A stretch of 13,560 nt of DNA from Sulfurimonas sp. Its GTDB lineage: Bacteria > Campylobacterota > Campylobacteria > Campylobacterales > Sulfurimonadaceae. Position 1 is the stretch's first letter. Each line of letters starts with the position of its first letter. The stretch covers positions 1-13,560 of the forward strand of contig JAGGWO010000098.1 of the NCBI GenBank assembly GCA_021157485.1. Direction: 5' to 3'. Shown here piece by piece: positions 1 to 13,560 of the stretch. The notes beneath the pieces were generated by a model that had not been told where the DNA came from, searched no databases, and worked only from the letters and a program-made list of their open reading frames with translations. Position numbers and translations under genes: made by a program.

Positions 1-1814
1 ATGTTGGTGATGATAAGATTTTACTTCCTGTTGAGAACTTGGATTTTATTGACCGATATATTGCCAGCGGTGGTTCTACTCCTGTTTTAGACAGACTAGG
101 TAAAGGCAGTTTTGGAAAACTAAAAGCTAAGGTTAGAAAACGTCTGCTTGAAATAGCAGGTCAAATTGTCAATACTGCAGCAGCCCGCTCTCTCATAAAA
201 TCTCCAAAAATAAGTGTCAACAAACAAGAGCTTAAAGAGTTTCAAAAACTATCAGGTTTTGAATATACTGAGGATCAAACGCAGTCTGTAGATGAGATTA
301 TAGGGCAAATGAGTTCAGGCCATATTATGGATAGACTACTAAGCGGTGATGTTGGTTTTGGTAAGACCGAAGTAGCTCTAAACACTATTTTTGCAGCTTA
401 TAAGTCAGGCTACCAGTCTGCGTTTATTGTCCCAACAACACTTCTTTCAGCTCAACATTTTCGTTCACTTCATGAGCGTTTTTTTGAGCTTGGAATCAAG
501 TATGCAAAACTAGATAGATTTGTAACTACTAAAGATAAAAACGCAGTTATAAAAGGTTTGGCTTCAGGTGAGATAGATTGTGTAGTTGGAACGCACTCCC
601 TTTTTGGACTAGAGTTTAAAAAACTGGGAGTAGTTATTATAGATGAAGAGCATAAGTTCGGTGTGAAGCAAAAAGAGAAGATTAAAGAGTTGTATCATAA
701 TGTGCACTTACTTTCTATGAGTGCAACACCAATTCCGCGTTCGTTAAATCAGGCAATGAGTTCTATTAAGACAATGAGCCAACTCTTAACTCCACCAAGT
801 GAACGTCAAGGTGTAAGAACCTTTGTAAAAGAGTATGATGAGAAGTTGATTAAAGAGGTTATTTTAAGAGAGCTTCGTCGCGGTGGACAGGTTTTTTATG
901 TACATAACTCGATTGACCATATGCCTATAAAATTTGGTGAGCTAAAAGCACTGCTTCCAGATTTGCGTATGGTTATGTTGCACTCTAAAATATCAGCAGT
1001 TGAAACTGAAAAAGAGTTACTCAAGTTTGAAGCTGGCGAATATGACTTAATGATAGCGACTTCTATTATAGAATCAGGTATTCATATGCCTAGAGTAAAT
1101 ACTATTTTAGTAGATGGTGCAGACAGATTTGGTATAGCTGACCTTCATCAGCTTCGTGGTCGTGTTGGACGTGGAAGTTATGAGGGTTTTGCCTATTTTA
1201 TAGTTCAAAATAAAGAAGCTCTTACAGATGAAGCAAAAAAACGTCTTTTAGCCTTAGAATCTAACTCATTTTTAGGTTCAGGTTCAGTGCTCGCTTATCA
1301 TGATTTAGAGATACGTGGTGGTGGTAACTTGGTAGGTGATGCGCAGAGTGGACATATTAAAAATATCGGTTACTCACTCTACCTTAGAATGTTAGAAGAT
1401 GCTATAAAAGAGCTTAGTAATACCCAAGAGAGTGAGCGAGCAAAAGTTGATATAAAACTAACTATCTCAGCCTATATCTCTGATGAGGTAGTTAAAGAAG
1501 ATAGGCTGCGTTTAGATGTATACAGACGTCTTTCTCAATGTGAAAACGCAGTAGAAGTATATGAGATAGAAGAAGAGCTCATAGATAGGTTTGGAGAGTT
1601 GGATAATCCAACAAAACAATTTTTTGAACTGATGGTTATTAAGCTACTTGCACTAGATAAAAAGATAAAATCTGTTTCAAATTATGGACAAAATATTACT
1701 TTTACATATTTGAATGAATCAAAAGAGACTATAAAGTCTAAAAGCAGAGATGATGATGATATCATCAAAGAGACTCTTTTTTATCTGAGAAACTCTAAGC
1801 CAAAAGTACTTTAA
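1..1814 (+). CDS. mfd: Transcription-repair coupling factor Mfd, 3' part (5' end outside window)
   Basis: Mfd is a cytoplasmic DNA translocase that removes RNA polymerase stalled at lesions and recruits the UvrA excision machinery. The reading frame is open from base 3 (GTT GGT GAT GAT...), so the TTG at 39 is an internal leucine and the gene starts upstream of the window. About 603 codons are visible. In order they give the end of the CarD-like RNA-polymerase interaction domain (to about codon 50), the superfamily 2 helicase core with Walker A GDVGFGKTE (about 345-371), a DEEH box at 642-653 (Mfd and RecG more often show DEEQ), SATPIPRS, the motif VI region HQLRGRVGRG (about 1147-1176), the EIRGGGNLVGDAQSGH segment, and the C-terminal TRCF domain. 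Family members in this phylum are close to 1000 residues, so roughly the first 400 are missing only because of the window edge. No frameshift is seen. Stop TAA is at 1812-1814. Confidence 0.96.
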   Translation, partial: VGDDKILLPVENLDFIDRYIASGGSTPVLDRLGKGSFGKLKAKVRKRLLEIAGQIVNTAAARSLIKSPKISVNKQELKEFQKLSGFEYTEDQTQSVDEIIGQMSSGHIMDRLLSGDVGFGKTEVALNTIFAAYKSGYQSAFIVPTTLLSAQHFRSLHERFFELGIKYAKLDRFVTTKDKNAVIKGLASGEIDCVVGTHSLFGLEFKKLGVVIIDEEHKFGVKQKEKIKELYHNVHLLSMSATPIPRSLNQAMSSIKTMSQLLTPPSERQGVRTFVKEYDEKLIKEVILRELRRGGQVFYVHNSIDHMPIKFGELKALLPDLRMVMLHSKISAVETEKELLKFEAGEYDLMIATSIIESGIHMPRVNTILVDGADRFGIADLHQLRGRVGRGSYEGFAYFIVQNKEALTDEAKKRLLALESNSFLGSGSVLAYHDLEIRGGGNLVGDAQSGHIKNIGYSLYLRMLEDAIKELSNTQESERAKVDIKLTISAYISDEVVKEDRLRLDVYRRLSQCENAVEVYEIEEELIDRFGELDNPTKQFFELMVIKLLALDKKIKSVSNYGQNITFTYLNESKETIKSKSRDDDDIIKETLFYLRNSKPKVL

Positions 1815-1823
1815 GGAATAAAT

Positions 1824-2633
1824 ATGCGAATAGCATTTATAGGTGATATAGTAGGTCAACCTGGACGTAAGATGGTACAAAATCATCTACAAAAAATTAG
1901 AGCAGAGTATAGTATTGACTTTGTAATAGCAAACTACGAAAATGCTTCTCACGGTTTTGGACTAACTTCTAAAAACGCAACGGAACTTGTCTCTTTTGGT
2001 ATTGATGTGATGAGTGGTGGTAATCATACTTGGGATAAAAAAGATATCTTGCCTCTCTTTGATACACATGAGCTTCTCCGTCCTCATAACTACCCTGAGG
2101 GTGTTCCTGGAACTGGATGTAAGGTTTATGATGTGGCCGGTGAGAAACTTGGGGTTTTAAATCTTATGGGACATTTTTCTATGCCATATACTGATAATGC
2201 GTTCAGATGTGCCGAGGAGACAGTTGCATCTCTACATGAAGAGGGTGTTAAAAATATATTTATAGATTTTCATGCAGAAGCTACAAGTGAGAAACGCGGA
2301 ATGATGATGTTGCTTCAAGGAAAAGTTAGTGCTATTATCGGTACACATACTCACGTTTCAACTGATGATTTTCAAATTTCACAAGGAACCGCTTACTTAA
2401 CGGACATAGGCTTGAGTGGTTGTAGAGATAATGTCATTGGGATGGATGCAAAAGTTCCTCTTAAACAGTTTCTCTCTGGAATGAAAGGGCATTTTGATAT
2501 CCCTAAAAAGTGTAAATCAATTTTACAGATAGCCATTATGGATTTTAGTGATTCAAAGTGTAGTGGGGCATTTAAGTTAAAATATTTTGACGATGGAAGA
2601 GTTATTAAAAATGATGCGTGGATTGAAGATTAA
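1824..2633 (+). CDS. ymdB: YmdB-like (TIGR00282) metallophosphoesterase
   Basis: This 269-residue protein belongs to the YmdB/TIGR00282 family. The Bacillus member is a two-metal 2',3'-cyclic-nucleotide 2'-phosphodiesterase that influences RNA turnover and biofilm behaviour. All metal ligands expected for the family are visible at matching positions: Asp8 in GDIVGQPG, Glu39 and Asn40, Asn67 and His68 in GGNHTWDKKD, His150 in FHAEATSEK, and His175 and His177 in GTHTHVSTDD. Length is typical and there is no signal peptide, so it is cytoplasmic. A small deviation is Tyr38, where the family usually has Gly (ANYENA rather than ANGENA). The start ATG lies 9 bases after the mfd stop and has an AAGGA ribosome site at 1813-1817 overlapping that stop, so it is probably co-transcribed with mfd. 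Its physiological substrate here is not known. Confidence 0.93.
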   Translation: MRIAFIGDIVGQPGRKMVQNHLQKIRAEYSIDFVIANYENASHGFGLTSKNATELVSFGIDVMSGGNHTWDKKDILPLFDTHELLRPHNYPEGVPGTGCKVYDVAGEKLGVLNLMGHFSMPYTDNAFRCAEETVASLHEEGVKNIFIDFHAEATSEKRGMMMLLQGKVSAIIGTHTHVSTDDFQISQGTAYLTDIGLSGCRDNVIGMDAKVPLKQFLSGMKGHFDIPKKCKSILQIAIMDFSDSKCSGAFKLKYFDDGRVIKNDAWIED

Positions 2634-3085
2634 GCGGTGATTTTGTAGTAGTTTTCATTTGCTATATATGTGTTTAGCATGGTGTGGCGTAGATTGTTTT
2701 CTTTTATATCTTGAATATTTTGGGGCAATTCTCTGTTTATTTTTGGTGTTTGGTCGAGTGTAGTACGAGGTGCTAGAATAAGAGAAAATATTTTAGAGTT
2801 ATCACTGTAGGCATTCTTAGCCTCAGCTTGAGCTTCTAACTTTAAAAATTTAGTTTTTGCACTGCTTTGAGAGTTCTCTTGCAATTTTTGTTGATTATTT
2901 AGAGATTTATAGTTTGATATATAATTAATTGGAAATTTAGGAGAAGTATCTACATTTTTAACTGTTTTAGAGAGAAGTTTTGCCTCAAATGATTCTGCAC
3001 CGTTCTCGCTCCTATTCACCCTGTTTTGTTGAGTTCTAGCAGTTGATTCAGTGTTGACATAAGTGCTAAACGATGATACATACAT
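2630..3085 (-). CDS. Hypothetical protein, unrecognised, convergent with ymdB
   Basis: A 151-residue protein that I do not recognise. It has no cysteine, no membrane segment and no signal peptide, and is rich in Asn, Gln, Ser and Lys, so it is probably soluble and partly disordered. A segment at about residues 80-95 (FLKLEAQAEAKNAYSD) could be helical. I chose the ATG at 3085 rather than the GTG at 3088 because the AAAGG ribosome site just upstream (minus strand, about 3094-3098) is 8 bases from the ATG and only 5 from the GTG. A TATAAT box on the minus strand (3117-3112) lies a suitable distance upstream. The stop overlaps the ymdB stop by 4 bases, tail to tail. The ribosome site, -10 box and open frame make it a likely real gene, but I can support no function. 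Confidence 0.68.
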   Translation of the reverse strand: MYVSSFSTYVNTESTARTQQNRVNRSENGAESFEAKLLSKTVKNVDTSPKFPINYISNYKSLNNQQKLQENSQSSAKTKFLKLEAQAEAKNAYSDNSKIFSLILAPRTTLDQTPKINRELPQNIQDIKENNLRHTMLNTYIANENYYKITA

Positions 3086-3111
3086 CACAAAAACCTTTAT
3101 CCCTTTTAGAC

Positions 3112-3117
3112 ATTATA
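3112..3117 (-). promoter_or_regulatory. -10 box (TATAAT) for the minus-strand hypothetical gene
   Basis: Read on the minus strand these bases are TATAAT, followed by the AAAGGGATAAAGG ribosome-site region and the ATG at 3085. The implied leader is about 20 bases. No convincing -35 box is seen, which is common for housekeeping promoters in Campylobacterota. Confidence 0.45.
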
Positions 3118-3199
3118 AATCAACACGACTTTAAATAATGTTAAAGAGTTATGATGTATCATTTGTGTATAAACTCACTTTTTACTAACTATCTAGTTG

Positions 3200-3205
3200 T
3201 ATACT
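3200..3205 (+). promoter_or_regulatory. Candidate -10 box (TATACT) for the response-regulator/kinase pair
   Basis: TATACT lies 31 bases upstream of the ATG at 3236, preceded by a T-rich stretch (CACTTTTTACTAACT) but no clear -35 box. A second, weaker candidate is TATAAA near 3169-3174. It lies in the divergent region between the minus-strand gene and the two-component pair, downstream of an inverted repeat that could be an operator. Confidence 0.35.
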
Positions 3206-3235
3206 TTGTAAAAGAAAATATTTTTGGATGAAATT

Positions 3236-3913
3236 ATGGATAGTTTAAAAAATCTTACTATTTTATATGTTGAAGATGATGATGAAGTAAGAGAAAATAT
3301 TGCTCAGAGTTTATCATATTTTGTAAAAGATGTATTGTCTGCAGGGAATGGTAATGATGCATTTGAACTTTATGAAAAGTATCCACCAGATATAATTATT
3401 ACAGATATAGACATGCCAGGGATGAATGGTTTGGAACTTGCGGCTAGAGTAAGAGAGCATGATAGTTTTATACCTATAGTTGTTATAACTGCATATACAA
3501 CTGAAGAGTTTTTATTAGATGCTGTTTCCCTTCATCTTGAGAGATATCTAGTAAAACCTGTAACTCTGGCAAAACTAAAAGAGAGTTTAGAATCTTGCTA
3601 TTATAAATTAAAAGAGTTAAATAGAATTACACTGAAGTTTTCTACAGGCTATACTTATAACCTTACATCAAATATTATGGAAGATGAAAATGGGGAACTC
3701 ATAACTTTACAAAATAAAGAAAAATTACTTTTAGAGTTGTTATTAAAAAATGTCGATGCTGTAACTTACTATAGTGAAATTGAAGATGAAATTTGGAAAG
3801 GTGAAAAGTTAAACAGAGGTTCTTTAAAAGCTTTGATTCTTAAACTGAGAAAAAAACTTGGAAAAGATAGTATAGTTAATGAAAATGAATTGGGTTACAG
3901 GTTGCGTATTTGA
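3236..3913 (+). CDS. OmpR-family two-component response regulator
   Basis: A 225-residue DNA-binding response regulator. The receiver domain (about 1-120) has the acidic pocket in VEDDDE (Glu13, Asp14), the phosphoacceptor Asp57 in TDIDMPGMNG, Thr85 in VVITAYT and Lys107 in YLVKPV, so it should be phosphorylatable. The C-terminal part (about 130-225) is a winged helix of the Trans_reg_C type, with EKLLLELLLKN, the recognition-helix region RGSLKALILKLRKKLG and the closing hairpin NELGYRLRI. I chose the ATG at 3236 over the in-frame TTG at 3224 because TTGGA sits 7 bases before the ATG. The stop overlaps the TTG start of the kinase by 4 bases (TTGA, 3910-3913), so the two are translationally coupled and form a cognate pair. 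Targets are unknown; the secretion operon starting at 5817 is the obvious candidate by position. Confidence 0.9.
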   Translation: MDSLKNLTILYVEDDDEVRENIAQSLSYFVKDVLSAGNGNDAFELYEKYPPDIIITDIDMPGMNGLELAARVREHDSFIPIVVITAYTTEEFLLDAVSLHLERYLVKPVTLAKLKESLESCYYKLKELNRITLKFSTGYTYNLTSNIMEDENGELITLQNKEKLLLELLLKNVDAVTYYSEIEDEIWKGEKLNRGSLKALILKLRKKLGKDSIVNENELGYRLRI

Positions 3914-5706
3914 GTAAAATTTTAGCTAGACTTTTTATATTACTACTTCTTATCTCTTCTTCTATCTCTGCGTTTACTATTTATGAAGACAAAAATTCTC
4001 ATATTACTGAAAAAGAGATATTTAAATATGAAGATAAGTTTTATACTCCAAAAGAGGGTGCTTACTCTTATACTGATTCTAGCTTCTGGTTGAAGTTTGA
4101 TTTTTCCAAAGATATCACACCTGAAAAATATATACTTTTTAACTTTGCTGTATTAACGTATGTTGATATGTTCTATAAAAGTGATGGTATTATCCAAGAG
4201 GTCAATTATGGAGCGGGTGTACAAAGAGAGCTCCCTTTTAATGAAATAATCCTCACTATACCTCTAGAAAAAATAGAGAGTAAAATAATTTATGTAAGAA
4301 TTAAACATAAGGGTGTTTTGTCTCTTGAAAATAGAATATTTGACTCTAAAGAGGATATATATAATCTCCTTGTGTTAAGAGATGATATCACTACATTTAT
4401 GGTGGCCATTACAATACTCATTATGTTATTTATCTCTGTTATAGCTTATAATCTAAAAGAGATAACCTATCGACTATTCTTGATGTTACTATTTTTTACC
4501 CTTATTATGGAACTAGCAATAAACAACTCTTTAACATGGATAATTGGAGCTAAAAATATAGATTTTATTTTTCAAGTAGGGGTAGATTTAACTGCTGTAG
4601 CTTTGTATCTATTTATCATGAATATTACAAATATGAAAGAGGCATTTCCTAAAATATATAAAATATTTAAATTATTAACAACTATTACACTCTATATTTT
4701 TATAACAGAATTTTTACAAAACAAAGATATTCATACAATAAAAACGGTTATTATAGTTCCAACATTTTTATCAATAGTATTTGCAAGCTTGGTATATATG
4801 TATTATAAAAATGTGAAATATTCAATTTTAATCTCAATAGGGTGGTTGTTTTTTCTTGCCTCAGCAGTTGTTTTATATTTAAGTGTAAATGGAATGATTA
4901 TAGGTGTCTACAATCCAATTATCTGGAAGGTCTTAATCATACTCGAGATGATTACTTTCTCACTTCTGTTACTTTATAGAATTAAAGAGTTAGCTGATGA
5001 AAATGTTAAACATGAGCTAGTCTTAGAAGAGCAGTCAAAGTTAGCAGTTATCGGTGAAACATTAACAAATATAGAACATCAGTGGCGCTCACCTCTTTCA
5101 AAAATATCATCAAATATCATTGCCTTGGAGACTGAACTTGAAGTAAAAGGAAAAGTAGAGAATAAAAGCCTGAAAAAAGCTCTTGTAAGTATGACAGATA
5201 CACTTGATTACATGACAAACTTGGTTGATTACTTTAAAGTATTCTATATGAAGGATCAAGATAAAAAACCTTTTTTAATAGGAAATTCATACTTAAGAGT
5301 TAGTCGACTACTTGAGTATGATTTTTTAAAATATTCAATTCAAATAGAGTATATTGATAATGATAAAATTCAGATACTTGGACATCTTAATGAATTTACA
5401 CAAGTACTATTAAATATTCTATCAAATTCACGTGATATTTTTATTCAACGTGAGATAAAAAAACCTAAAATAGAGATAAATGTCTCTAAAAAAGACAATA
5501 ATGTAATTATAACTATTGAAGATAATGCTGGAGGAATTGATGAAGAAAATTTAGAGAATATTTTTAATCAATTTTTTTCTGATAAAGATAAACAAAGTAC
5601 CGGTGTAGGGTTATACCTATGCAAACATATTGTAGAGAAAAAAATGAATGGAACTATACGCGTCAAAAATAAAAATCAAGGTGCAAGATTTATAATAAAA
5701 CTATAA
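3910..5706 (+). CDS. 7TMR-DISM sensor histidine kinase
   Basis: A 598-residue membrane sensor kinase. A signal peptide or first anchor (about 1-21) is followed by a periplasmic sensor domain (about 22-155) of the 7TMR-DISMED2 type (SFWLKFDF, FNFAVLTYVDMFY). About seven hydrophobic helices (roughly 160-357) match the 7TMR-DISM membrane module. The cytoplasmic kinase follows: phosphoacceptor His390 in NIEHQWRSPLSKIS, N box LNILSNSRD (501-509), G1 box EDNAGG (537-542), QFF (554-556) and G2 box GVGLYL (565-570). All catalytic boxes are intact. The start is a TTG overlapping the regulator stop, with CAGG at 3898-3901, 8 bases upstream. No alternative ATG leaves the leader intact, so this start is probably right. 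DISM sensor domains resemble carbohydrate-binding folds, so the signal may be a sugar or envelope component, but this is inference. Confidence 0.92.
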   Translation: MSKILARLFILLLLISSSISAFTIYEDKNSHITEKEIFKYEDKFYTPKEGAYSYTDSSFWLKFDFSKDITPEKYILFNFAVLTYVDMFYKSDGIIQEVNYGAGVQRELPFNEIILTIPLEKIESKIIYVRIKHKGVLSLENRIFDSKEDIYNLLVLRDDITTFMVAITILIMLFISVIAYNLKEITYRLFLMLLFFTLIMELAINNSLTWIIGAKNIDFIFQVGVDLTAVALYLFIMNITNMKEAFPKIYKIFKLLTTITLYIFITEFLQNKDIHTIKTVIIVPTFLSIVFASLVYMYYKNVKYSILISIGWLFFLASAVVLYLSVNGMIIGVYNPIIWKVLIILEMITFSLLLLYRIKELADENVKHELVLEEQSKLAVIGETLTNIEHQWRSPLSKISSNIIALETELEVKGKVENKSLKKALVSMTDTLDYMTNLVDYFKVFYMKDQDKKPFLIGNSYLRVSRLLEYDFLKYSIQIEYIDNDKIQILGHLNEFTQVLLNILSNSRDIFIQREIKKPKIEINVSKKDNNVIITIEDNAGGIDEENLENIFNQFFSDKDKQSTGVGLYLCKHIVEKKMNGTIRVKNKNQGARFIIKL

Positions 5707-5787
5707 TTCACTTTTAAATCACCCCTGTTAGATATAATTATCTTAGTAATATGCCACTGGAATAAAATATGCTAGTGAAGTCTATAT

Positions 5788-5793
5788 TATAAT
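5788..5793 (+). promoter_or_regulatory. Candidate -10 box (TATAAT) for the type I secretion operon
   Basis: A perfect TATAAT lies 24 bases before the start of the TolC-OmpA fusion and just ahead of its AGGAGA ribosome site (5803-5808). A second TATAAT is at 5733-5738 inside the near-palindrome AGATATAATTATCT. Neither has a clear -35 box. The 110-base gap (5707-5816) between kinase and channel gene holds no convincing terminator, so read-through from the regulator/kinase pair is also possible. Confidence 0.45.
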
Positions 5794-5816
5794 GTTTATT
5801 TTAGGAGACAAAAGTA

Positions 5817-7826
5817 TTGAAACTGTTTTTGAATTTTATTTTACTGTTTAGCTTACTATCATCATCACTATTTTCTCTAACGCTTCAAGAGAGCGTAGTT
5901 GAAGTTATGAATACAAATCCGATTGTTGCAGAGCGACTAAAAAACTACAGAGCAACACAACAAGATTTAACTGTTGCTGAGTCTGAATACTATCCAAGTG
6001 TAGATTTTAGAGCTTCTCTTGGTTACAACAGTGCTGGAGCACTTAAAACTTCAGATGAAGATTGGAATCATGAAGTACAAGATGAGCAGTACAACAATTA
6101 TGAAACATCTTTAATCCTGACACAAAACCTATTTGATGGTTTTTCAACTACAAGTAAAGTTGACTACCAAGAAGCAAGAATTTTAGCAGCTGCATACAAC
6201 TATATAGAAAAATCAAATGACTTAGCTTTTAAAATGACAACTGCTTACTTAAATGTTATTCGCTCATATGAACTTCTTCAAACTGCAAGAGAAAATGTGC
6301 AGATTAATGATGAGATATTTAGAAAGGTAAAAGATCTTTTTGATTCAGGGCTTACTACTGATTCTGAAGTTAAAAAAATAGAATCAGCCCTTTCTCTTGC
6401 GCGCTCAAACCTTACTGTTCAGAGAAATAACTCACGTGATACAGAATATAGTTTTAGAAGAGTACTCGGTCGTATGCCAAATGTTGCAAATATGAGTAAA
6501 CCTGAATTAAATATTTCTATGCCAGATAGTATCGAGAGAGCCGCGCTTTATGCAGTAAATCATAATCCATCACTGCTTGTTAGCCGTTATAATATTCAAG
6601 GGGCACAAGCACTTCATAGGCAAACTCAAAAAGACTTTTACCCAAAAATTGATTTAGAGCTTGCTCAGAATTATAATGATGCAGATAAACTAAATAGATT
6701 TAATCAGCCAGATGATAGATTTACAGCAAGACTAGTTCTTTCATATAATATATTTCGTGGAGGAGCAGACACTGCAGCAGCCCAAAGAGAAATAAGTAAG
6801 ATAAATCAAGAGATTGATATTAAAAGAGATCTTAAGCGTCAAGTTATTGAAGGCCTAGATCTCTCTTGGAATGCTTATGAGATGATTGCGCAGCAACTTA
6901 TAGACTTAAAAGATTATAGTCGCTTTAGTGAAAAAACACTAGAGCTTTATAAAGAAGAGTATGATTTAGGTCGTCGCTCTCTGCTTGATCTTTTATCTGC
7001 TCAAAATGATGTTATAAACTCTCGTTCTCAGATTATTATTGCAGAGCATGATTATCTTTTAGCAAAGTATCGTATCTTGGATGCGATGGGTCTTTTACCG
7101 ATGGCTATTGTTGGAGATACAAAAGATTTTAGTTCTCGTGTAAATCTTTACACAGATGGCGAAGCTCATGAAATATTAGATACTATCCCGGTAAAACTTG
7201 ATGTTGATGGAGATAATATTGTTGATAATCTAGACCTGTGTGATAACTCGCTTTTAGAGAATAATATCATGCCTTATGGTTGTAAAAAGATACTTAGAGA
7301 TAGTGATGGTGATGGTGTACGTGACTCAAGAGACAAATGTCCGCTCACTCCTAAAAATGCTAAAGTTTCTCCTGATGGATGTGCCCTTGATGGTGATATG
7401 GATGGGATTAAAGATTATAAAGATAAGTGTCTAGATACTCCAATAGGTTATGAGGTAAATGATGATGGTTGTGCCATATCACTGAATCTTGGTGTGAATT
7501 TTAAATATTATAGTGATATTATAGAAGAAAATTCTGAAAAAAATATAGAAAAATTTGCAGAGTTTATAAAAAAGAATTCTCATTATGAACTCAATATTGT
7601 AGGACATACAAGTACTAAAGGTGATGCAGATCTTAATAAAAGACTTTCACTAAAAAGAGCTAAAGCTGTAAAGTTGGCTCTGATAAATTTAGGTGTTAGT
7701 GCAAATAGTATGACAACAGAAGGACGAGGTGAAGAAGACCCGATAGTTGAAGATACTTTATCTGATTCTTCATTAGATGGCAAACTCCTTAATCGTCGTG
7801 TAGAAATAGAAATTTCAATAGAGTAA
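5817..7826 (+). CDS. TolC-family outer-membrane channel fused to TSP3 repeats and an OmpA-like domain
   Basis: A 669-residue chimeric envelope protein. Residues 1-20 are a signal peptide (FSLLSSSLFS). Residues about 21-425 are a type I secretion outer-membrane factor of the TolC/LapE kind, with two repeated outer-membrane-efflux units: barrel strands such as SLILTQNLFDG and RLVLSYNIFRGG, and coiled-coil helices such as FDSGLTTDSEVKKIESAL and EEYDLGRRSLLDLLSAQND. Residues about 461-553 hold three thrombospondin type 3 calcium repeats (DVDGDNIVD, DSDGDGVRD, DGDMDGIKD, each followed by a Cys). Residues about 556-669 are an OmpA-like peptidoglycan-associating domain ending NRRVEIEI. Ordinary TolC/LapE proteins end near 430-480 residues without this tail. 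In the OmpA part the Asp of the HTD motif is Ser599, while Arg614 of LSxKRA is kept. The TTG start has AGGAGA 8 bases upstream and places the signal peptide correctly. It is the first gene of the secretion operon; the next starts 11 bases downstream. Confidence 0.93.
   Translation: MKLFLNFILLFSLLSSSLFSLTLQESVVEVMNTNPIVAERLKNYRATQQDLTVAESEYYPSVDFRASLGYNSAGALKTSDEDWNHEVQDEQYNNYETSLILTQNLFDGFSTTSKVDYQEARILAAAYNYIEKSNDLAFKMTTAYLNVIRSYELLQTARENVQINDEIFRKVKDLFDSGLTTDSEVKKIESALSLARSNLTVQRNNSRDTEYSFRRVLGRMPNVANMSKPELNISMPDSIERAALYAVNHNPSLLVSRYNIQGAQALHRQTQKDFYPKIDLELAQNYNDADKLNRFNQPDDRFTARLVLSYNIFRGGADTAAAQREISKINQEIDIKRDLKRQVIEGLDLSWNAYEMIAQQLIDLKDYSRFSEKTLELYKEEYDLGRRSLLDLLSAQNDVINSRSQIIIAEHDYLLAKYRILDAMGLLPMAIVGDTKDFSSRVNLYTDGEAHEILDTIPVKLDVDGDNIVDNLDLCDNSLLENNIMPYGCKKILRDSDGDGVRDSRDKCPLTPKNAKVSPDGCALDGDMDGIKDYKDKCLDTPIGYEVNDDGCAISLNLGVNFKYYSDIIEENSEKNIEKFAEFIKKNSHYELNIVGHTSTKGDADLNKRLSLKRAKAVKLALINLGVSANSMTTEGRGEEDPIVEDTLSDSSLDGKLLNRRVEIEISIE
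7197..7475 (+). repeat. Thrombospondin type 3 calcium-repeat region in the TolC fusion
   Basis: Three acidic DxDxDGxxD-type repeats, each followed by a Cys and a proline- or glycine-containing link. At the DNA level the unit at 7299-7320 (GATAGTGATGGTGATGGTGT and two more bases) is nearly identical to 8525-8546 in the next gene. These repeats bind calcium in characterised proteins and commonly act as stiff linkers before OmpA domains. Confidence 0.65.
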
Positions 7827-7837
7827 GGGAGGTAATT

Positions 7838-9037
7838 ATGAGAAAAAAAATAAATAACTTATATATTAAGATGATGATATTACCTTTGGTTTTGAGTTCA
7901 ACTCTATTTAGCGCAACATATGACGAGACATATAGTGTTTTAGACTCAAAGGGGTCACATGAAAAAAATGTCAACACATATATGGACGGAAATTTTGAAG
8001 AGATAATCCGTTTTGACGACATTTTATTTACTAAAAATGGAGTTGATAAATCTAGTGAAAAAATAGTAGATAAAGCAATTGAAAAAATAAAAAAGTATAC
8101 TAGAGATGGTAAAGTTCTTAATGTGACGCTTATTGGGCATACAGACAGAGCAACTAATGATATGAATGAGCAGACAATTGACTCAGATACATATGCTAAT
8201 AAAATTCAAAATATGTTTCGTTACTCTTTAAGTGAGAATAATAGCACCGAAATAAGTAAAGATTACGCAAACAACCTCAAAAAAAGATTAGTAGATAGCG
8301 ATATCTCTAAAGATATACTGTTTGTAGAGAATAGAGGTTCAAAAGATTTGGCTTATATTGGTGATGAACCAGAAGATAGAGATTTGTCTAATCGTGTTAT
8401 GGTTACTCTTTATATTGCAGAACCCGTAGATATCGATAGTGACAGAGACGGCGTTTTTGATAATATTGATAGATGTCCAAACACTCCAAGACTTTCAAAA
8501 GTTGATAAGTATGGCTGTCCTATAGATAGTGATGGAGATGGTGTACTTGATTATAAAGACAGATGTGCTAAAACACCAAAAGGTGTTAAGGTTGATAGAA
8601 ATGGTTGTCCTGTAGATAGTGATGGTGATGGCATTGTAGACTATAAAGATAAGTGTCAAGGTACAGAGGAAGGTTTTAGTGTTGACCCAAATGGATGTCC
8701 TTTAAAAAGTACATTGAAACTACATTTTAATCCACGTTCTGACCAAATACAAATTGGCTCAAATGATGAAATAAAACGTTTTGCAAAGTTTATGAAAGAA
8801 AATAAGCTTTATAAAGCTAAAATAACTGGTCATACAGATAGTATAGGTAAGGCCGTGACGAATATGAGACTTTCACAAAGAAGAGCTAAAGCCACTAAAA
8901 TTGCACTCATAGCTGAAGGTGTTGAGGCATCTCGCTTGAGTACTGCTGGGCGTGGAGAACTTGACCCCATAGAGTCAAATAGACTTAAAGCTGGTAGAAG
9001 TGCTAATCGCCGTATAGAAGTGGAACTATATTATTAA
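7838..9037 (+). CDS. Envelope protein with two OmpA-like domains flanking TSP3 repeats
   Basis: A 399-residue exported protein. Residues 1-25 are a signal peptide (basic start, then MMILPLVLSSTLFSA). Residues about 53-195 form a divergent OmpA-like domain (IRFDDILFTKNG, LIGHTDR, ENRGS, LSNRVMVTLYI) with an insertion of about 25-30 residues after HTD; it keeps Asp103 but has Tyr143 where the diaminopimelate-contacting Arg is expected. Residues about 198-288 are three thrombospondin type 3 repeats (DSDRDGVFD, DSDGDGVLD, DSDGDGIVD). Residues about 292-399 are a canonical OmpA C-terminal domain with GHTDSIG (Asp334), LSQRRA (Arg349), AGRGELDP and NRRIEVEL, expected to bind peptidoglycan. The ribosome site AAGGGAGG at 7825-7832 overlaps the previous stop. 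OmpA-like genes often accompany type I systems that export large adhesins, and the position suggests an accessory envelope-anchoring part. It could instead be a general structural protein. Confidence 0.9.
   Translation: MRKKINNLYIKMMILPLVLSSTLFSATYDETYSVLDSKGSHEKNVNTYMDGNFEEIIRFDDILFTKNGVDKSSEKIVDKAIEKIKKYTRDGKVLNVTLIGHTDRATNDMNEQTIDSDTYANKIQNMFRYSLSENNSTEISKDYANNLKKRLVDSDISKDILFVENRGSKDLAYIGDEPEDRDLSNRVMVTLYIAEPVDIDSDRDGVFDNIDRCPNTPRLSKVDKYGCPIDSDGDGVLDYKDRCAKTPKGVKVDRNGCPVDSDGDGIVDYKDKCQGTEEGFSVDPNGCPLKSTLKLHFNPRSDQIQIGSNDEIKRFAKFMKENKLYKAKITGHTDSIGKAVTNMRLSQRRAKATKIALIAEGVEASRLSTAGRGELDPIESNRLKAGRSANRRIEVELYY
8429..8701 (+). repeat. Thrombospondin type 3 calcium-repeat region in the OmpA-like protein
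   Basis: Three DSDxDG-type units (starting near 8432, 8528 and 8618), each ending in a Cys-containing link and a GCP motif. They are collinear with the repeats in the preceding TolC fusion. Confidence 0.65.
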
Positions 9038-9058
9038 AAAAATCGAAGGTAGTGGTAA

Positions 9059-11209
9059 ATGAATGAGCATACAATAACGATAAATGAAGATTCTCTTTTA
9101 GAGATTTTTGTTATTTTTACAAAGCTTTTTCATAAACCATATACCAAAGAAGCTCTTTTAGCGGGGCTACCTATTCATGGTGACCAAAAGCTATTTTCCA
9201 AGGGAAAATCAAAATCTCTTTTCTCCCGTGTTGCTGGACGTGCAGGACTTAAATCTACACTAATTAAAAGACCAATCAAAGATATGCTCTCTCTACACCT
9301 TCCAATAATTTTACTGTTAAGTAATGATAATGTATGTATTTTAGAAAAATTTAGTGAGGATCGAACTGAAGCAAAAATTATCTATCCTGAGGGTGGGGGA
9401 CTCCAAGAGTGGCTAAGTGTAGAGGATCTTGAAAAAGAGTACATAGGTTTTGCATATATGCTTAAAAAAGAGTTTGAGTATGATGATAAAAACTCTAGAA
9501 CCCTGCAGATTAAACAAAAGCACTGGTTTTGGAGTACGCTAAAGCTATCTTTCCCAATTTATAGAGATGTCCTCTGGGCTTCACTACTTGTAAATATTTT
9601 TGTTTTAGCTACACCTCTCTTTACAATGAATGTGTATGATAGAGTGATTCCAAATAATGCACAAGAGACCCTGATGGTTTTTACTATTGGTATTGTTCTA
9701 GTATATATTTTAGATTTTTTCTTAAAAGTTACAAGAGGTTATTTACTTGAGTTGGCCGGGAAGAAGAGTGATATTATCATGTCTTCTATCATTTTTGAAA
9801 AAGTTTTAGATCTCAAGATGTCTGAGTATCCACCGTCAGTTGGATCATTCGCGAATAATATGAAAGATTTTGAATCTGTTCGTTCTTTTTTTACAACTGC
9901 AACAATGACAGCTGTGATTGACCTGCCATTTGCGATTATATTTTTAGCTGTTATTTACTATATCGGAGGAAATCTAGTATTTGTTCCTATGATTACAATG
10001 CTATTAATCTTGATATATGCTCTTATTATTAGAAAACCTCTCCAAGAGAGTATAGAGTCATCGCATGAAGCTAGTGCAAAAAAGAATGGTATTTTAATTG
10101 AAACACTGCAGAACATAGAGACAGTAAAATCTATGCGAATGAACTCTAAAATGCAATGGGAATGGGAAGAGTCAACCGGAGAAATTGCCGAGAAAAATTT
10201 AAAATCACGTCTTCTTTCCTCTTCAATTCCTAATGTTACAAATCTTTTTATTCAGTTAAATACAGTCTTTGTAGTTGTTTTTGGAGTTTATTTGATTCAA
10301 GAGTTTGAGCTTACTATGGGTGGACTTATCGCTGTTGTAATTCTAACATCAAGAACAGTTGCTCCTATGGGGCAAGCAGCTGGACTTATTTCTAACTACT
10401 CTGATGCAAGAACCTCGTACAATACACTTAATGATATTATATCAAAAGAGGCTGAACGTCCAGCTGGTAAAGAGTTTGTAGAGCGTCCAAAATTTAAAGG
10501 AAAAATAGAGTTTAAAGATGTCTGTTTTAACTACCCAGGAACAGAAGTTCCAGCGCTTAGCAATGTTAGTTTTACCATAGAAGCTGCAGAAAAGGTAGCA
10601 ATCATTGGTAGAATAGGTTCAGGTAAAAGTACGATAGCAAAACTCATTTTAAAACTATATGAACCGACAAGTGGAAAAATTATGATTGATGGCATAGATT
10701 TAACACAGATTGATCCTGCAGATTTACGTCGTTTCATAGCGTATGTTCCTCAAGATATACATCTTTTTAAAGGTACGATAAAAGATAATATTATTTCATC
10801 AGAACAACATCCTGATGTTGGAGATATTATATATGCAGCTCAAGTGAGTGGTACTGAAGAGTTCGTTCAAACACACCCGATGGGTTTTGATATGCCAATC
10901 GGAGAGAGAGGAGCAGGACTCTCGGGCGGACAGCGTCAAAGTGTTGGAATTGCGAGATCTCTTATGCAGGATAGCTCGATTATGATTATGGATGAACCAA
11001 GTAATGCTATGGATCAAACAACTGAGAGTAGACTTTTAGAAAGACTTAAAGTTGAACTTGCTGATGAGACAGTGCTTATAATTACACAAAAATTATCTCT
11101 TTTAGATATGACGGATAGAATTATTGTGATGCATAACTCTAAGGTACTGCTTGATGGACCAAAAGAGCAGGTTACAAAACAACTAGGAGGTGCTACTAAT
11201 GTCAAATAA
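9059..11209 (+). CDS. Type I secretion ABC exporter, LapB/LssB type, with C39-like domain
   Basis: A 716-residue inner-membrane permease/ATPase. Residues about 1-135 resemble a C39 peptidase fold but have no Cys near the N-terminus (only Cys93), so this is a C39-like domain that would bind rather than cleave cargo. Transmembrane helices lie at about 170-440. The nucleotide-binding domain (about 482-716) has Walker A GRIGSGKST (Lys523), Q loop Gln565 (VPQDIHLF), signature LSGGQ (621-625) and Walker B IMIMDE (Glu646). The H-loop is unusual: where exporters of this family show THR or THK, this protein has ITQK, giving Gln677 (codon CAA at 11087-11089) in place of the catalytic His. GAAGG at 9045-9049 is 9 bases before the ATG. 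The 3' end overlaps the adaptor gene by 11 bases. Together with the TolC and HlyD partners it forms a one-step trans-envelope exporter, probably for the adhesin that begins at 13223. Confidence 0.94.
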   Translation: MNEHTITINEDSLLEIFVIFTKLFHKPYTKEALLAGLPIHGDQKLFSKGKSKSLFSRVAGRAGLKSTLIKRPIKDMLSLHLPIILLLSNDNVCILEKFSEDRTEAKIIYPEGGGLQEWLSVEDLEKEYIGFAYMLKKEFEYDDKNSRTLQIKQKHWFWSTLKLSFPIYRDVLWASLLVNIFVLATPLFTMNVYDRVIPNNAQETLMVFTIGIVLVYILDFFLKVTRGYLLELAGKKSDIIMSSIIFEKVLDLKMSEYPPSVGSFANNMKDFESVRSFFTTATMTAVIDLPFAIIFLAVIYYIGGNLVFVPMITMLLILIYALIIRKPLQESIESSHEASAKKNGILIETLQNIETVKSMRMNSKMQWEWEESTGEIAEKNLKSRLLSSSIPNVTNLFIQLNTVFVVVFGVYLIQEFELTMGGLIAVVILTSRTVAPMGQAAGLISNYSDARTSYNTLNDIISKEAERPAGKEFVERPKFKGKIEFKDVCFNYPGTEVPALSNVSFTIEAAEKVAIIGRIGSGKSTIAKLILKLYEPTSGKIMIDGIDLTQIDPADLRRFIAYVPQDIHLFKGTIKDNIISSEQHPDVGDIIYAAQVSGTEEFVQTHPMGFDMPIGERGAGLSGGQRQSVGIARSLMQDSSIMIMDEPSNAMDQTTESRLLERLKVELADETVLIITQKLSLLDMTDRIIVMHNSKVLLDGPKEQVTKQLGGATNVK

Positions 11210-12536
11210 TGAACATAAAAATCTTTCAAAAAGAGATTATGAATTCATGCACTCTCTTAGCGCAGCAGTTCTTGAAGTTGCCCCTACACGTTTGAGATTT
11301 GTTCTTTATTTTTGGGTTGTGGCAATATTTATGTTTATCACATGGGCTAATTTTGCACTTATTGATGAGATTGCTAGAGGTGATGGGGAAATTATTCCTA
11401 GTGGTGAAAACCAGATGATACAAAATCTTGAGGGTGGTATCGTTGAAGAGATTTTAGTTAATGAGGGTCAAGAGGTAAAAAAAGGTCAAATTTTAATAAA
11501 AATAGATAACCAAAAATCAAAATCATCCTTTAGCTCAAACGCAATCAAAGCAGATGCTCTTGAGACAAAAATAGTTCGTCTCTTTGCAGAATCTAGTGGC
11601 AAAATGTTTCAAGTATCAGATGAGCTTAAAAAAAGACTTCCCGAATTTGTGGAGAATGAAAAGAGTTTATATCAGACAAATAAACAGCAGTTAAACTCTA
11701 AGCTAAATGCTTTAAAAGAGCGACTTTCACAAAAAAAGACAGAACTTTCAGAAGCACAAAATCAACTTGAGTATTTAAAAGCTTCTTCGGATTTTATATC
11801 TAAAGAAGTGAAGATGACTAAGCCCATGGTTGCAAAAGGAGTTCGCTCTAAAATTGACTTCTTAAAGTTAAAGCGTGAGGCGAATGAAATCATCTCAAAG
11901 TATGATGCAACAAAAAAATCAATACCTCGTCTTAGATCTGCTATTAAAGAGGTTAGGAGCACTATTAGAGAGGCTACTCTTATGTTTCAAAGTGAAGCGA
12001 AAGTTAAAATGAATGAGGCTATAGCAGAACTTAGAGGATTGAGAGCAACTTCTACAGCACTAGAAGATCAAGTAAGTCGTACTGTAGTTCGCTCACCTAT
12101 GAATGGTATTGTTCAAAAACTTTTTGTTCACACTGTTGGCGGTGTTATTAAGCCTGGTGAAAATATTATGGAAATAGTTCCCAGTGATGAAACACTTATT
12201 GTAGAAGCTAAAATAAAACCATCCGATATTGCGTTTATATATTTTGGACAAAAAGCCATTGTTAAGTTTTCTGCTTATGATTTTGCTATATATGGTGGTC
12301 TTGATGGTCAAGTTGTTTTAATTAGTGCTGATACGATTAAAGATGAAAAAGATAATGTTTTTTATACTGTTAGGATTAAAACAAACCAAAATTATCTAGG
12401 GGATGAAAGTAAACAGCTTAAAATTATTCCTGGTATGACAGTTAGTGTTGATATTATTACTGGGCAAAAAAGTGTACTTGATTATATTTTAAAACCTATT
12501 TTAAAAACAAAACAGTACACATTTACGGAGAGGTAG
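11199..12536 (+). CDS. Type I secretion membrane-fusion (adaptor) protein, HlyD/LapC family
   Basis: A 445-residue periplasmic adaptor that links the ABC exporter to the TolC channel. It has a short cytoplasmic N-terminus, one membrane helix (about 35-55, FVLYFWVVAIFMFITWANFA), and the first lipoyl half with the family hallmark GEIIPSGENQMIQNLEGGIV. A long alpha-helical coiled-coil hairpin (about 95-290, e.g. LNSKLNALKERLSQKKTEL) is followed by the second lipoyl half (VVRSPMNGIVQKL, VGGVIKPGENIMEIVPSDE) and a beta-barrel end (VKFSAYDFAIYGG, IIPGMTVSVDIITGQKS). I chose the ATG at 11199 over the GTG at 11190 because AGGAGG at 11185-11190 is 8 bases before the ATG and overlaps the GTG. It overlaps the exporter gene by 11 bases and is followed one base later by the LuxR-type gene. 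Confidence 0.95.
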   Translation: MSNNEHKNLSKRDYEFMHSLSAAVLEVAPTRLRFVLYFWVVAIFMFITWANFALIDEIARGDGEIIPSGENQMIQNLEGGIVEEILVNEGQEVKKGQILIKIDNQKSKSSFSSNAIKADALETKIVRLFAESSGKMFQVSDELKKRLPEFVENEKSLYQTNKQQLNSKLNALKERLSQKKTELSEAQNQLEYLKASSDFISKEVKMTKPMVAKGVRSKIDFLKLKREANEIISKYDATKKSIPRLRSAIKEVRSTIREATLMFQSEAKVKMNEAIAELRGLRATSTALEDQVSRTVVRSPMNGIVQKLFVHTVGGVIKPGENIMEIVPSDETLIVEAKIKPSDIAFIYFGQKAIVKFSAYDFAIYGGLDGQVVLISADTIKDEKDNVFYTVRIKTNQNYLGDESKQLKIIPGMTVSVDIITGQKSVLDYILKPILKTKQYTFTER

Positions 12537-12537
12537 T

Positions 12538-13125
12538 ATGAAAGTTTTAATACATAGCGATGATATAAATCTACTCTCTCACTGGGAAAAATCCATTGAT
12601 TCAAAGTATGAAATTATTGATAATTTGGATGAGTTGTTAAATATGACTTCTAGTCTAATAATTATTAATTTCTCAGCATGTTTACCTAGTTGTGATGATG
12701 TTTTAAAAACTTTAATAAGTAATGATAATAAGGTTTTAGTTCTCCATAGAACACCAGAATTGGCTGTTGCAAAAAAGCTTTTAAGAATTGGTGCAATGGG
12801 TTATGGAAATGCTTTGATGAGAGATCATTTTATAGTTGCAGCACTCAATGCGATTAAAGATAATATGGTCTGGTTATACCCAGAGTTAACTTCTCAACTT
12901 ATTATGGATATACCAACATCAAATGATGAAAACAGTGATGAACAACTCTCAAAATTAACATCAAGAGAAAAAGAAGTTGCACTACTTCTTAAAGAAGCAT
13001 ATCCATACAAAGAGATAGCACTCAAACTTGATATTACACCAAGAACGGTAAAAGCTCACGCACAAAGTACCTATTCAAAACTAAATGTTAAAGATAGACT
13101 AGCACTTGCACTCCTCTTAAAATAG
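12538..13125 (+). CDS. LuxR-type transcription regulator with degenerate receiver
   Basis: A 195-residue two-domain regulator. Residues about 1-120 have the layout of a receiver, but the phosphoacceptor position is Asn44 (LIIINFSA), the Thr/Ser switch position appears to be His70, and the conserved Lys is not evident around GAMGYGNALM; only the acidic pair Asp8-Asp9 remains. It is therefore unlikely to be switched by ordinary phosphorylation. Residues about 137-195 are a GerE/LuxR helix-turn-helix (LTSREKEVALLL, YKEIALKLDITPRTVKAHAQ). The ATG is one base after the adaptor stop, with GGAGAGG at 12527-12533, so it is the last gene of the secretion operon and sits next to the putative adhesin gene, which it may regulate. 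Similar pseudo-receiver LuxR proteins beside LapBCE-type exporters are familiar to me from other proteobacteria, but I cannot verify orthology here. Confidence 0.88.
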   Translation: MKVLIHSDDINLLSHWEKSIDSKYEIIDNLDELLNMTSSLIIINFSACLPSCDDVLKTLISNDNKVLVLHRTPELAVAKKLLRIGAMGYGNALMRDHFIVAALNAIKDNMVWLYPELTSQLIMDIPTSNDENSDEQLSKLTSREKEVALLLKEAYPYKEIALKLDITPRTVKAHAQSTYSKLNVKDRLALALLLK

Positions 13126-13141
13126 GGCTTTACTCAACTAC

Positions 13142-13176
13142 TTGTCCCTATGGACAATACCATTAATCTTTTTTTT
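13142..13176 (+). terminator. Possible weak terminator or attenuator after the LuxR-type gene
   Basis: TTGTCC (13142-13147) and GGACAA (13152-13157) form a 6-base-pair stem with a CTAT loop. A run of eight T follows at 13169-13176, but 11 bases from the stem, which is further than in a classical intrinsic terminator. A competing 4-base-pair hairpin (ATGG 13150-13153 with CCAT 13160-13163) lies nearer the T run. It may give partial termination. Confidence 0.35.
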
Positions 13177-13180
13177 AACC

Positions 13181-13186
13181 TATAAT
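13181..13186 (+). promoter_or_regulatory. Candidate -10 box (TATAAT) for the adhesin gene
   Basis: A consensus TATAAT lies 36 bases before the ATG at 13223, with the T-rich run 13169-13176 just upstream and no clear -35 box. This gives the adhesin gene its own transcription start near 13193, apart from the secretion operon. Confidence 0.45.
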
Positions 13187-13222
13187 CTAAATAATTAAAA
13201 TTTTATCTATTTAGGATATATT

Positions 13223-13560
13223 ATGAATGTAGTTATTGGAACAGTAAAAACGCTAAGCGGACAGTTTTTTGCAAAAGATTCACATGGCGATGTAGTTGAG
13301 CTACATGTTGGAGATAAGATAACACAAGATATGGTTGTATTTGGTGCTGATGAAAATAGTGCAGATGCAAATATCAAGATAGGAATGTTAAACCTAGAAG
13401 AGGCAATAACTCTTACTGGTCTAGAAAAACAGACTTTTGATATGTCACTAATAGAAGATAATAACATTGATGACCTACTTTCCCCAGATAGCTTAAACGC
13501 AGCACTAAATGAAAATGTAGATGTAGATGCACAAGAGAGTGAAAATACAGATGAAGAAGA
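13223..13560 (+). CDS. Retention-module protein, probable LapA-like type I secreted adhesin (5' end only)
   Basis: An open frame starts at the ATG at 13223 (AGGA at 13213-13216, 6 bases upstream) and runs off the window without a stop; 112 codons are visible. The first residues, MNVVIGTVKTLSGQFFAKD followed by HGDVVELHVGDKI, match the pattern I know from the N-terminal retention module of LapA-like adhesins (a GTV..SG..F/Y....G....L..GD motif). The region then reads IKIGMLNLEEAITLTG and becomes very acidic after residue 95 (NENVDVDAQ...). There is no signal peptide, as expected for type I secretion, where the signal is at the C-terminus. Placement directly after a LapB/LapC/LapE-type operon fits a cargo gene. 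No LapG-type cleavage site (a TAAG-like motif) appears in the visible part. Total length, repeats and secretion signal lie outside the window, so 'giant adhesin' is inference. Confidence 0.75.
   Translation, partial: MNVVIGTVKTLSGQFFAKDSHGDVVELHVGDKITQDMVVFGADENSADANIKIGMLNLEEAITLTGLEKQTFDMSLIEDNNIDDLLSPDSLNAALNENVDVDAQESENTDEE

Follow-up and report, generated by a model that had tools for sequence, protein, structure and literature searches.

Lap systems pose a mechanical question: what keeps a giant adhesin, seated in an outer membrane that is thin, from being torn out? The question is raised by a 13,560-nucleotide stretch of a Sulfurimonas sp. assembly (GCA_021157485.1, contig JAGGWO010000098.1, positions 1 to 13,560; here called the window). 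In the gene at 5817-7826 on the plus strand of the window, a TolC/LapE-like secretion channel is followed by thrombospondin type 3 (TSP3) repeats and then by an OmpA-like domain; the next gene downstream encodes another OmpA protein, the partner. On balance, we consider it probable that this LapE-type channel of a Lap system is tethered to peptidoglycan by its fused tail together with the partner, and that it bears the load on the adhesin in this way.

The channel and its OmpA-like tail form one chain

The stretch 5817-7826 (+) is a single open reading frame of 669 amino acids (aa), with a TTG start at 5817, a stop at 7824-7826, and no internal stops. Its parts, and the gene that follows it, are listed here.

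5817..7106, +, TolC/LapE-type channel domain, residues 1-430 (Pfam OEP in two stretches; TIGR01844; alignment to TolC)
7200..7481, +, three TSP3 repeats, from residue 462 (Pfam TSP_3; motifs)
7500..7760, +, fused OmpA-like domain, residues 562-648 (PF00691; whole-genome profile match at 7500-7763)
7611..7613, +, Ser599, in the column of the diaminopimelate-contacting Asp (Ser in 108/121 tails)
7635-7637, +, Asn607, kept ligand residue of the tail (triad column)
7656-7658, +, Arg614, kept ligand residue of the tail (triad column)
7838..9037, +, partner of 399 aa, with a degenerate OmpA domain (OmpA'), three TSP3 repeats, and an OmpA domain (Pfam OmpA and TSP_3; TSP3 motifs)

The channel begins with a signal-peptide-like stretch of about 21 residues, as judged by eye. 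Pfam OEP matches it in two stretches (174.1 bits), the second ending at residue 425, and the NCBIfam model for type I secretion TolC proteins (TIGR01844) matches at 254 bits against a cut-off of 225.15; by these profiles it belongs to the LapE/TolC type I secretion family. The TSP_3 match is just above threshold (25.6 bits; cut-off, 25), and the TSP3-like motifs, which show the calcium-ligand pattern, start at residues 462, 495, and 525. The tail itself matches PF00691 (OmpA) at 64.5 bits, with a cut-off of 27.2. Frame, Pfam, NCBIfam, and motifs thus agree with the first-pass annotation, made from the sequence of the window alone, which had described one frame running from a TolC/LapE-like channel through three TSP3 repeats to an OmpA-like domain. 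We looked around codon 430-460 for a stop or a sequencing error that would have separated two genes and found none.

A homology search with the channel gave 1278 homologs at E<=1e-10 among 7996 scored candidates. All of the best 120, which were listed, carry the channel and OmpA in one chain (PF02321 plus PF00691); they come from several data sources, with identity down to 61%, and database names for such proteins include 'adhesin transport system outer membrane protein'. The architecture is not a one-off: many Sulfurimonas and Arcobacter relatives share the fusion, and it is met again in channels from the class of a Colwellia-titled genome, so that a unique oddity is ruled out.

Channel residues 93-427 align with residues 63-407 of Escherichia coli TolC, and residue 427 corresponds to TolC 407, five residues before Leu412. 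Because Leu412 lies in the equatorial domain and is periplasmic (review, PMC8277102), the tail should, by this alignment, leave the channel on the periplasmic side, which is where it had been placed from the start.

The partner keeps a ligand triad that the fused tail has altered

The OmpA-family partner gene follows the lapE-type gene of the operon (7826/7838), with 11 bases between the channel stop and the partner start codon. The partner scores 87.9 bits for OmpA, in two stretches, and 38.2 bits for TSP_3. The ligand site of such domains has been described in other systems: PorE holds diaminopimelate with three side chains, those of Asp576, Asn584, and Arg591 (PMC7192894), and in Acinetobacter baumannii OmpA, D271 and R286 are critical for diaminopimelate association, according to calorimetry with alanine variants (cited in PMC6572160). 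The corresponding triad of the partner, D334/N342/R349, is intact as Asp/Asn/Arg in 121/121 sequences, itself and 120 listed relatives. In its N-terminal OmpA', Tyr replaces the Arg in 116/121 (the position was matched by eye), and from this substitution OmpA' is probably no cell-wall binder. A third partner-like protein, a 388-aa frame whose N-terminal OmpA domain is degenerate and whose C-terminal one is canonical, is encoded on contig C71 of the same genome (L045).

The fused tail departs from the triad, having Ser599/Asn607/Arg614. Among the window and the 120 listed homologs, the first column is Ser in 108/121 and Asp in 1/121, and the full set Ser-Asn-Arg is found in 107/121. The OmpA-like domain reported by the first-pass annotation therefore stands as a domain match but lacks the canonical Asp; judged by its residues, it is non-canonical, and we do not class it as a proven peptidoglycan binder. 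Since the full triad is kept in the partner and the Asp is lost in the tail, the partner is probably the stronger, or main, anchor in this window.

Among relatives, the partner module stands apart, is split, or is joined to the channel

Our annotation covered 79 genome stretches chosen by hand, the best 80 loci of named genomes, and a further set of 24, made up of 20 loci from the class of a Colwellia-titled genome and 4 from plasmids. The 79 stretches were picked mostly from LapB- or channel-positive matches, so that the class frequencies given here are not population frequencies. The last 24 are called gammaproteobacterial, a group assumed from the Colwellia title, and most of these rows were chosen for long frames. 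Channels were classed by our own profile scores, with borderline OmpA' falling in the one-OmpA or the degenerate class, and only identical proteins were merged, so that near-copies remain. The 163 distinct channels comprised 60 with no tail, 33 with one OmpA domain, 21 with two, 19 with a degenerate OmpA only, 16 with another tail (13 of these scanned with Pfam), and 14 with TSP3 only. When the 24 gammaproteobacterial rows were excluded, LapB was present in the locus in 127/139 channel rows.

Within these 127 rows, a separate same-strand OmpA gene lay within 4 kb of 9/11 TSP3-ending channels, compared to 1/20 two-OmpA channels (Fisher, 2.5e-5; the rows are related and so not independent). Channel and partner together come to 838-910 aa, a length matched by the full fusions (807-916 aa). 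At L185 and L187, a TSP3-ending channel abuts a separate partner of 324-325 aa. In the tree of channel domains, built with FastTree under long-branch warnings, these two loci are sister to the Arcobacter-type full-fusion clade. The partner module has therefore joined the channel by gene fusion, at least in the Arcobacter-type lineage. A split state also occurs (e.g., L091, L098, and L102): the channel bears a degenerate OmpA', and TSP3 and OmpA are encoded by one gene upstream of it. Thus, the partner module exists in three states among relatives: separate, split, and fused to the channel.

Fusions were also found on an isolate contig (Sulfurimonas indica NW8N, L159) and on a complete plasmid (Arcobacter cloacae pACLO). 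A plasmid search with another fusion (L275) gave 0/490 matching records at 80% cover, and a Marinobacter adhaerens plasmid match had no secretion genes in the stretch read. In Arcobacter cryaerophilus gv. crypticus (L189), the adhesin and LuxR genes are inverted between the full-fusion channel and LapB. Two Colwellia-titled contigs labelled Gammaproteobacteria (L209 and L212) encode channels 45-46% identical to that of the window, and an OmpA gene close by has the triad Ser-Asn-Arg; transfer and misbinning are both possible.

The Asp-to-Ser change is frequent and not strictly coupled to fusion

Asn and Arg of the triad are retained in 104/104 OmpA domains with scores of 60 bits or more; this threshold favors intact domains. 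The first position is Asp in 49/56 separate domains (at least three of which, at L152, L153, and L297, come from stretches without LapB), in 11/26 one-OmpA channels, and in 5/22 two-OmpA channels; Ser takes this position in 5/56 separate domains. Six other OmpA proteins were found in the genome of the window, with Asp shown in five. We dropped the rule that a separate domain means Asp: the first 41 domains gave Asp in 23/23 separate and 4/18 fused domains, but the larger sample held 7/56 separate domains without Asp and 16/48 fused ones with it. First-position Asp/Ser changes number 10 on a poorly resolved tree. Altogether, these comparisons indicate that the change from Asp to Ser is frequent in this system, has multiple origins, and is not strictly coupled to fusion. 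Judged from the position affected, it may weaken or alter cell-wall binding; a Ser would still be able to hydrogen-bond, and part of the ligand contact is probably made by the main chain.

These residues also suit a different arrangement, in which the fused tail has lost peptidoglycan binding and is a platform on which the partner, or parts of LapG or LapD, docks, so that only the partner touches the wall. The Ser of the tails (108/121), set against the triad of the partner (121/121), would be expected under it, and the Tyr of the partner's OmpA' (116/121, by eye) implies that OmpA-like domains here do take other roles. The tails nevertheless keep Asn and Arg (Ser-Asn-Arg in 107/121), and Ser is not tied to fusion, since it also occurs in the 5/56 separate domains. 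Moreover, 19/20 two-OmpA LapB channels outside the gammaproteobacterial set would have nothing of this kind to dock, as their loci show no separate same-strand OmpA gene within 4 kb. We hold pure docking to be unlikely and favor a channel tethered by tail and partner together.

Cell-wall-binding folds recur on related channels

On the FastTree of channel domains, 21 changes are needed to explain the OmpA label. For the SPOR label, carried by 10 rows of which one is just below the cut-off, 5 are needed, and well-supported branches force 4 of these. SPOR is a peptidoglycan-binding fold unrelated to OmpA. It scored above the Pfam cut-off in nine channels, on the C-terminal side in L127, L131, L134, L136, L226, L235, L283, and L287 and on the N-terminal side in L137; in L125 it fell just under. 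In the Colwellia-class set, the OmpA tail follows a TSP3 linker in L274 (by motif) and L284 (by Pfam), Ig-like Big_9 domains in L275 and L278 (by Pfam, with L276 and L277 similar to the eye), and a plain linker in L280-L282, and the Pfam scan of L281 showed a linker without any other domain. L286 has OmpA N-terminal to the channel. A homology search with the fusion L281 found OmpA in 30/120 listed homologs and none in the other 90. That two unrelated cell-wall-binding folds recur on one channel class argues for a tether that was selected rather than accidental.

As a control within the genus, the OEP frames of nine genomes were counted by hand, fragments included. Of 66 such frames, 6 had OmpA in frame, degenerate domains included; the share was 5/7 for OEP frames lying no more than 2 kb from LapB and 1/59 for the others (Fisher, 1.4e-5). 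The exception lies on a short contig of the window's own genome (C126) without LapB, and its channel groups among LapB-linked channels in the tree.

The control bears on a second alternative, that the tail binds peptidoglycan for the sake of assembly, seating the channel in a wall gap or setting its spacing to the LapB-LapC pump, with no load-bearing. Cryo-electron tomography places peptidoglycan at the TolC-AcrA junction (PMC6570770), where a wall-binding module could guide assembly. The contrast between LapB-adjacent and other OEP channels fits adhesin retention better, and we rate assembly as the sole function improbable.

The varied linkers bear on calcium. The first-pass annotation had suggested a reinforced or calcium-responsive channel. 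In a calcium-responsive one, TSP3 repeats stiffened by calcium would gate or time secretion; the three motifs with the calcium-ligand pattern fit this, and adhesins of the Lap class are generally calcium-dependent. Some fused channels, however, lack a TSP3 match (Big_9 in L275 and L278, a bare linker in L281). Because linkers vary, the recurrent companion of the channel is OmpA, not TSP3, and calcium sensing as the main role has no support beyond the TSP3 motifs and is highly improbable. Finally, a chimeric assembly or a frameshift fusing two genes might be feared in an assembly of 249 contigs that is 80% complete, but its probability is negligible and it is ruled out by the same architecture in 120/120 listed homologs, beside the fusions on an isolate contig and a complete plasmid.

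A proposed tethered channel as load bearer

In the wall-tethered channel that we propose, the adhesin would be exported through the channel and then plugged there by its N-terminal retention module, as is expected from the family. LapA stays anchored in LapE (PMC6890996), and because Lap adhesins remain plugged in the channel, a pull on the adhesin fibre would pass to the channel. Each protomer would send out one TSP3 linker with its OmpA-like tail from the equatorial region, which makes three per trimer if the channel is trimeric like its family. Tail and OmpA'-TSP3-OmpA partner would then tie the trimer to peptidoglycan and spread the load, the tail either binding peptidoglycan in an altered or weaker fashion or docking the partner. 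The proposal builds on observed architecture, operon, recurrence, fusion complementarity, and residue pattern; peptidoglycan binding, tail-partner contact, and load-bearing would follow if it holds. The reinforced channel of the first-pass annotation survives as an idea, given the OmpA and SPOR fusions in related channels, although that account omitted the separate partner, probably the main anchor.

Several lines of evidence lead us to this reading. The partner module is found separate, split, or fused, with two-OmpA channels rarely having a separate OmpA gene; related channels carry OmpA after varied linkers, an N-terminal OmpA, or SPOR; OmpA is concentrated in the LapB-adjacent OEP frames of the genus; and Asn and Arg are kept in every domain scoring at least 60 bits. 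In addition, an OmpA gene occupies the same slot in Salinivibrio kushneri, in Marinomonas algicola (with one gene between), and, as SO4321, in Shewanella; LapD and LapG are encoded in the genome of the window; and TpgA offers a precedent (PMC13082670).

Four observations weigh against it. First, cryo-electron tomography of E. coli located peptidoglycan not at the equatorial domain of TolC but at its coiled coils and the tips of AcrA (PMC6570770). Crosslinks have also been mapped to the TolC equatorial domain (PMC6570770), and the linker of about 120 residues could span from the equatorial domain to peptidoglycan height. Second, the tail has Ser in place of an Asp that was shown to be critical in A. 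baumannii OmpA. Third, the terminal OmpA domain has Ser in 17/17 Arcobacter-type full fusions, and because a separate OmpA gene turned up nowhere within 4 kb of these channels, canonical binding, as predicted from the residues, is missing there. Fourth, 50/127 LapB rows had no detected OmpA, fused or separate within 4 kb, so at those loci an OmpA anchor is either non-obligatory or located elsewhere; a few of them carry SPOR.

A broader claim, that wall tethering is a general and unrecognised part of Lap-type secretion, with the tether supplied by a separate OmpA, a partial or complete fusion, SPOR, or an N-terminal OmpA and with the change from Asp to Ser marking a changed wall hold, we regard as evenly poised between right and wrong. 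The fusions link the OmpA gene of Lap operons, such as SO4321, to the channel, and we predict that SO4321 anchors LapE to peptidoglycan.

Comparison with known systems

One close parallel is LapE of LapEBC in Pseudomonas fluorescens, likewise a TolC-like channel; here too it stands beside LapB, LapC, and a retention-module-like protein, with LapD and LapG in the genome. In contrast to LapE, for which the excerpted text describes no wall-binding tail (PMC6890996), the channel here has TSP3 and OmpA fused to it and a second OmpA protein beside it. In the Bpf operon of Shewanella oneidensis, the OmpA-like gene SO4321 lies between the type I secretion genes and bpfG, and its deletion affected biofilm; its role was published as not known, the guesses being that it helps to translocate BpfD and BpfG or sets BpfA in place on the outer membrane (PMC4523816). 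Its slot matches that of the window partner at 7838-9037, which directly follows the channel gene, but SO4321 is a separate protein with no fusion reported, and the likeness is one of slot and domain name only. Under the Lap names that we give to the annotated products, the gene order is HlyD-TolC-OmpA-LapG-LapD-LapB in S. kushneri and TolC, an LptE-family gene, OmpA, LapG, LapD, LapB, LapC on the M. algicola plasmid. The LptE-family gene between the M. algicola channel and OmpA genes is at L295:13234-14088.

Wall-anchored secretion machines and adhesin barrels are already known in other classes. In Acinetobacter sp. Tol 5, the periplasmic protein TpgA reinforces the outer-membrane anchor of the giant adhesin AtaA and, by simulation, approximately doubles the force needed to extract the AtaA membrane domain (PMC13082670). 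Unlike our case, AtaA is a trimeric autotransporter, TpgA is a separate protein, and there is no TolC channel; the TpgA model NF047726 matches the OmpA part of the tail weakly (33.8 bits; cut-off, 350). PorE of type IX secretion has an OmpA_C-like domain with Asp/Asn/Arg and is thought to tie the secretion machine to peptidoglycan (PMC7192894), but it is a separate multidomain lipoprotein with the canonical Asp. In E. coli, YbjP is an accessory protein at the TolC equatorial domain (PMC13082787); it differs in being a membrane-anchored lipoprotein without fusion, and its authors state that it may not bind peptidoglycan avidly (PMC13082787). The inverse autotransporter YeeJ is an adhesin that itself binds peptidoglycan and promotes biofilm (PMC5595812), but it belongs to a different secretion class. 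In full-text searches of open-access papers, with subscription journals and preprints outside their scope, we found no description of a TolC-OmpA or TolC-SPOR fusion in type I secretion or of its recurrence.

The rest of the locus and the Lap circuit

The genes downstream of the partner are as follows.

9059..11209, +, LapB/LssB-type type I secretion ATP-binding cassette transporter (TIGR03375, 879.7 bits; cut-off, 693.1)
11190..12536, +, LapC/HlyD-type periplasmic adaptor (TIGR01843, 419.3 bits; cut-off, 208.65)
12538..13125, +, LuxR-type regulator (Pfam GerE, 48.3 bits; same slot, between the adaptor and adhesin genes, in many relatives)
13223..13560, +, start of an adhesin, LapA-type retention-module-like, cut by the window end (NF033682; slot)

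The locus therefore has the LapB (LssB-type) transporter and adaptor of a Lap system. LapD and LapG are encoded next to each other on another contig (C17): LapD matches PF16448 (LapD_MoxY_N) at 110 bits, GGDEF at 67.6, and EAL at 55.6, and LapG matches PF06035 (Peptidase_C93) at 60.9 bits. The adhesin start, of which the window holds only the first 112 aa, scores 24 bits with NF033682, under the cut-off of 50. Longer relatives, many with LapG-type sites, occupy the same slot; in three of them the NF033682 retention-module model gave no match, and the NCBIfam matches that were given look compositional. LapG cleaves adhesins at [TAP]AAG. In relatives' adhesins, [TAPS]AAG is present at residues 96-160 in 27/47, an ETxG/ETxxG variant in 12 more, and neither in 8; the window adhesin is cut off by the window edge before such a site. 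Given LapB, LapC, and the retention-module-like start, together with LapD and LapG in the genome, we read the locus as a Lap-type adhesin system, with a putative retention module below the model cut-off. The adhesin-secretion setting assumed by the first-pass annotation is thereby borne out.

The LuxR-type regulator (12538-13125) gave no Pfam receiver-domain match; in many loci it adjoins the adaptor gene. The channel gene is immediately preceded by genes for an OmpR-type response regulator (3224-3913, +) and a 7TMR-DISM histidine kinase (3910-5706, +), which possibly control the adhesin system. Elsewhere in the same genome, contig C126 carries a second channel with a degenerate OmpA tail (L147:302-2083, +), alone beside two genes that to the eye resemble a HipA-like and a flagellar one, and contig C65 carries LapB-LapC-LuxR without a channel (L148:1056-5165, -) beside the end of a repeat-rich secreted protein; the two may be one system split between two places. 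Among the other annotated channels, N-terminal extensions are present in L285 (354 aa) and in L114, L151, and L117 (about 142-165 aa), and a Pfam scan of those of L285, L114, and L117 gave no domain above the cut-off. Some channel tails carry Sel1 repeats, which are no known cell-wall binder (L082, 44 bits; L109 and L111, below the cut-off).

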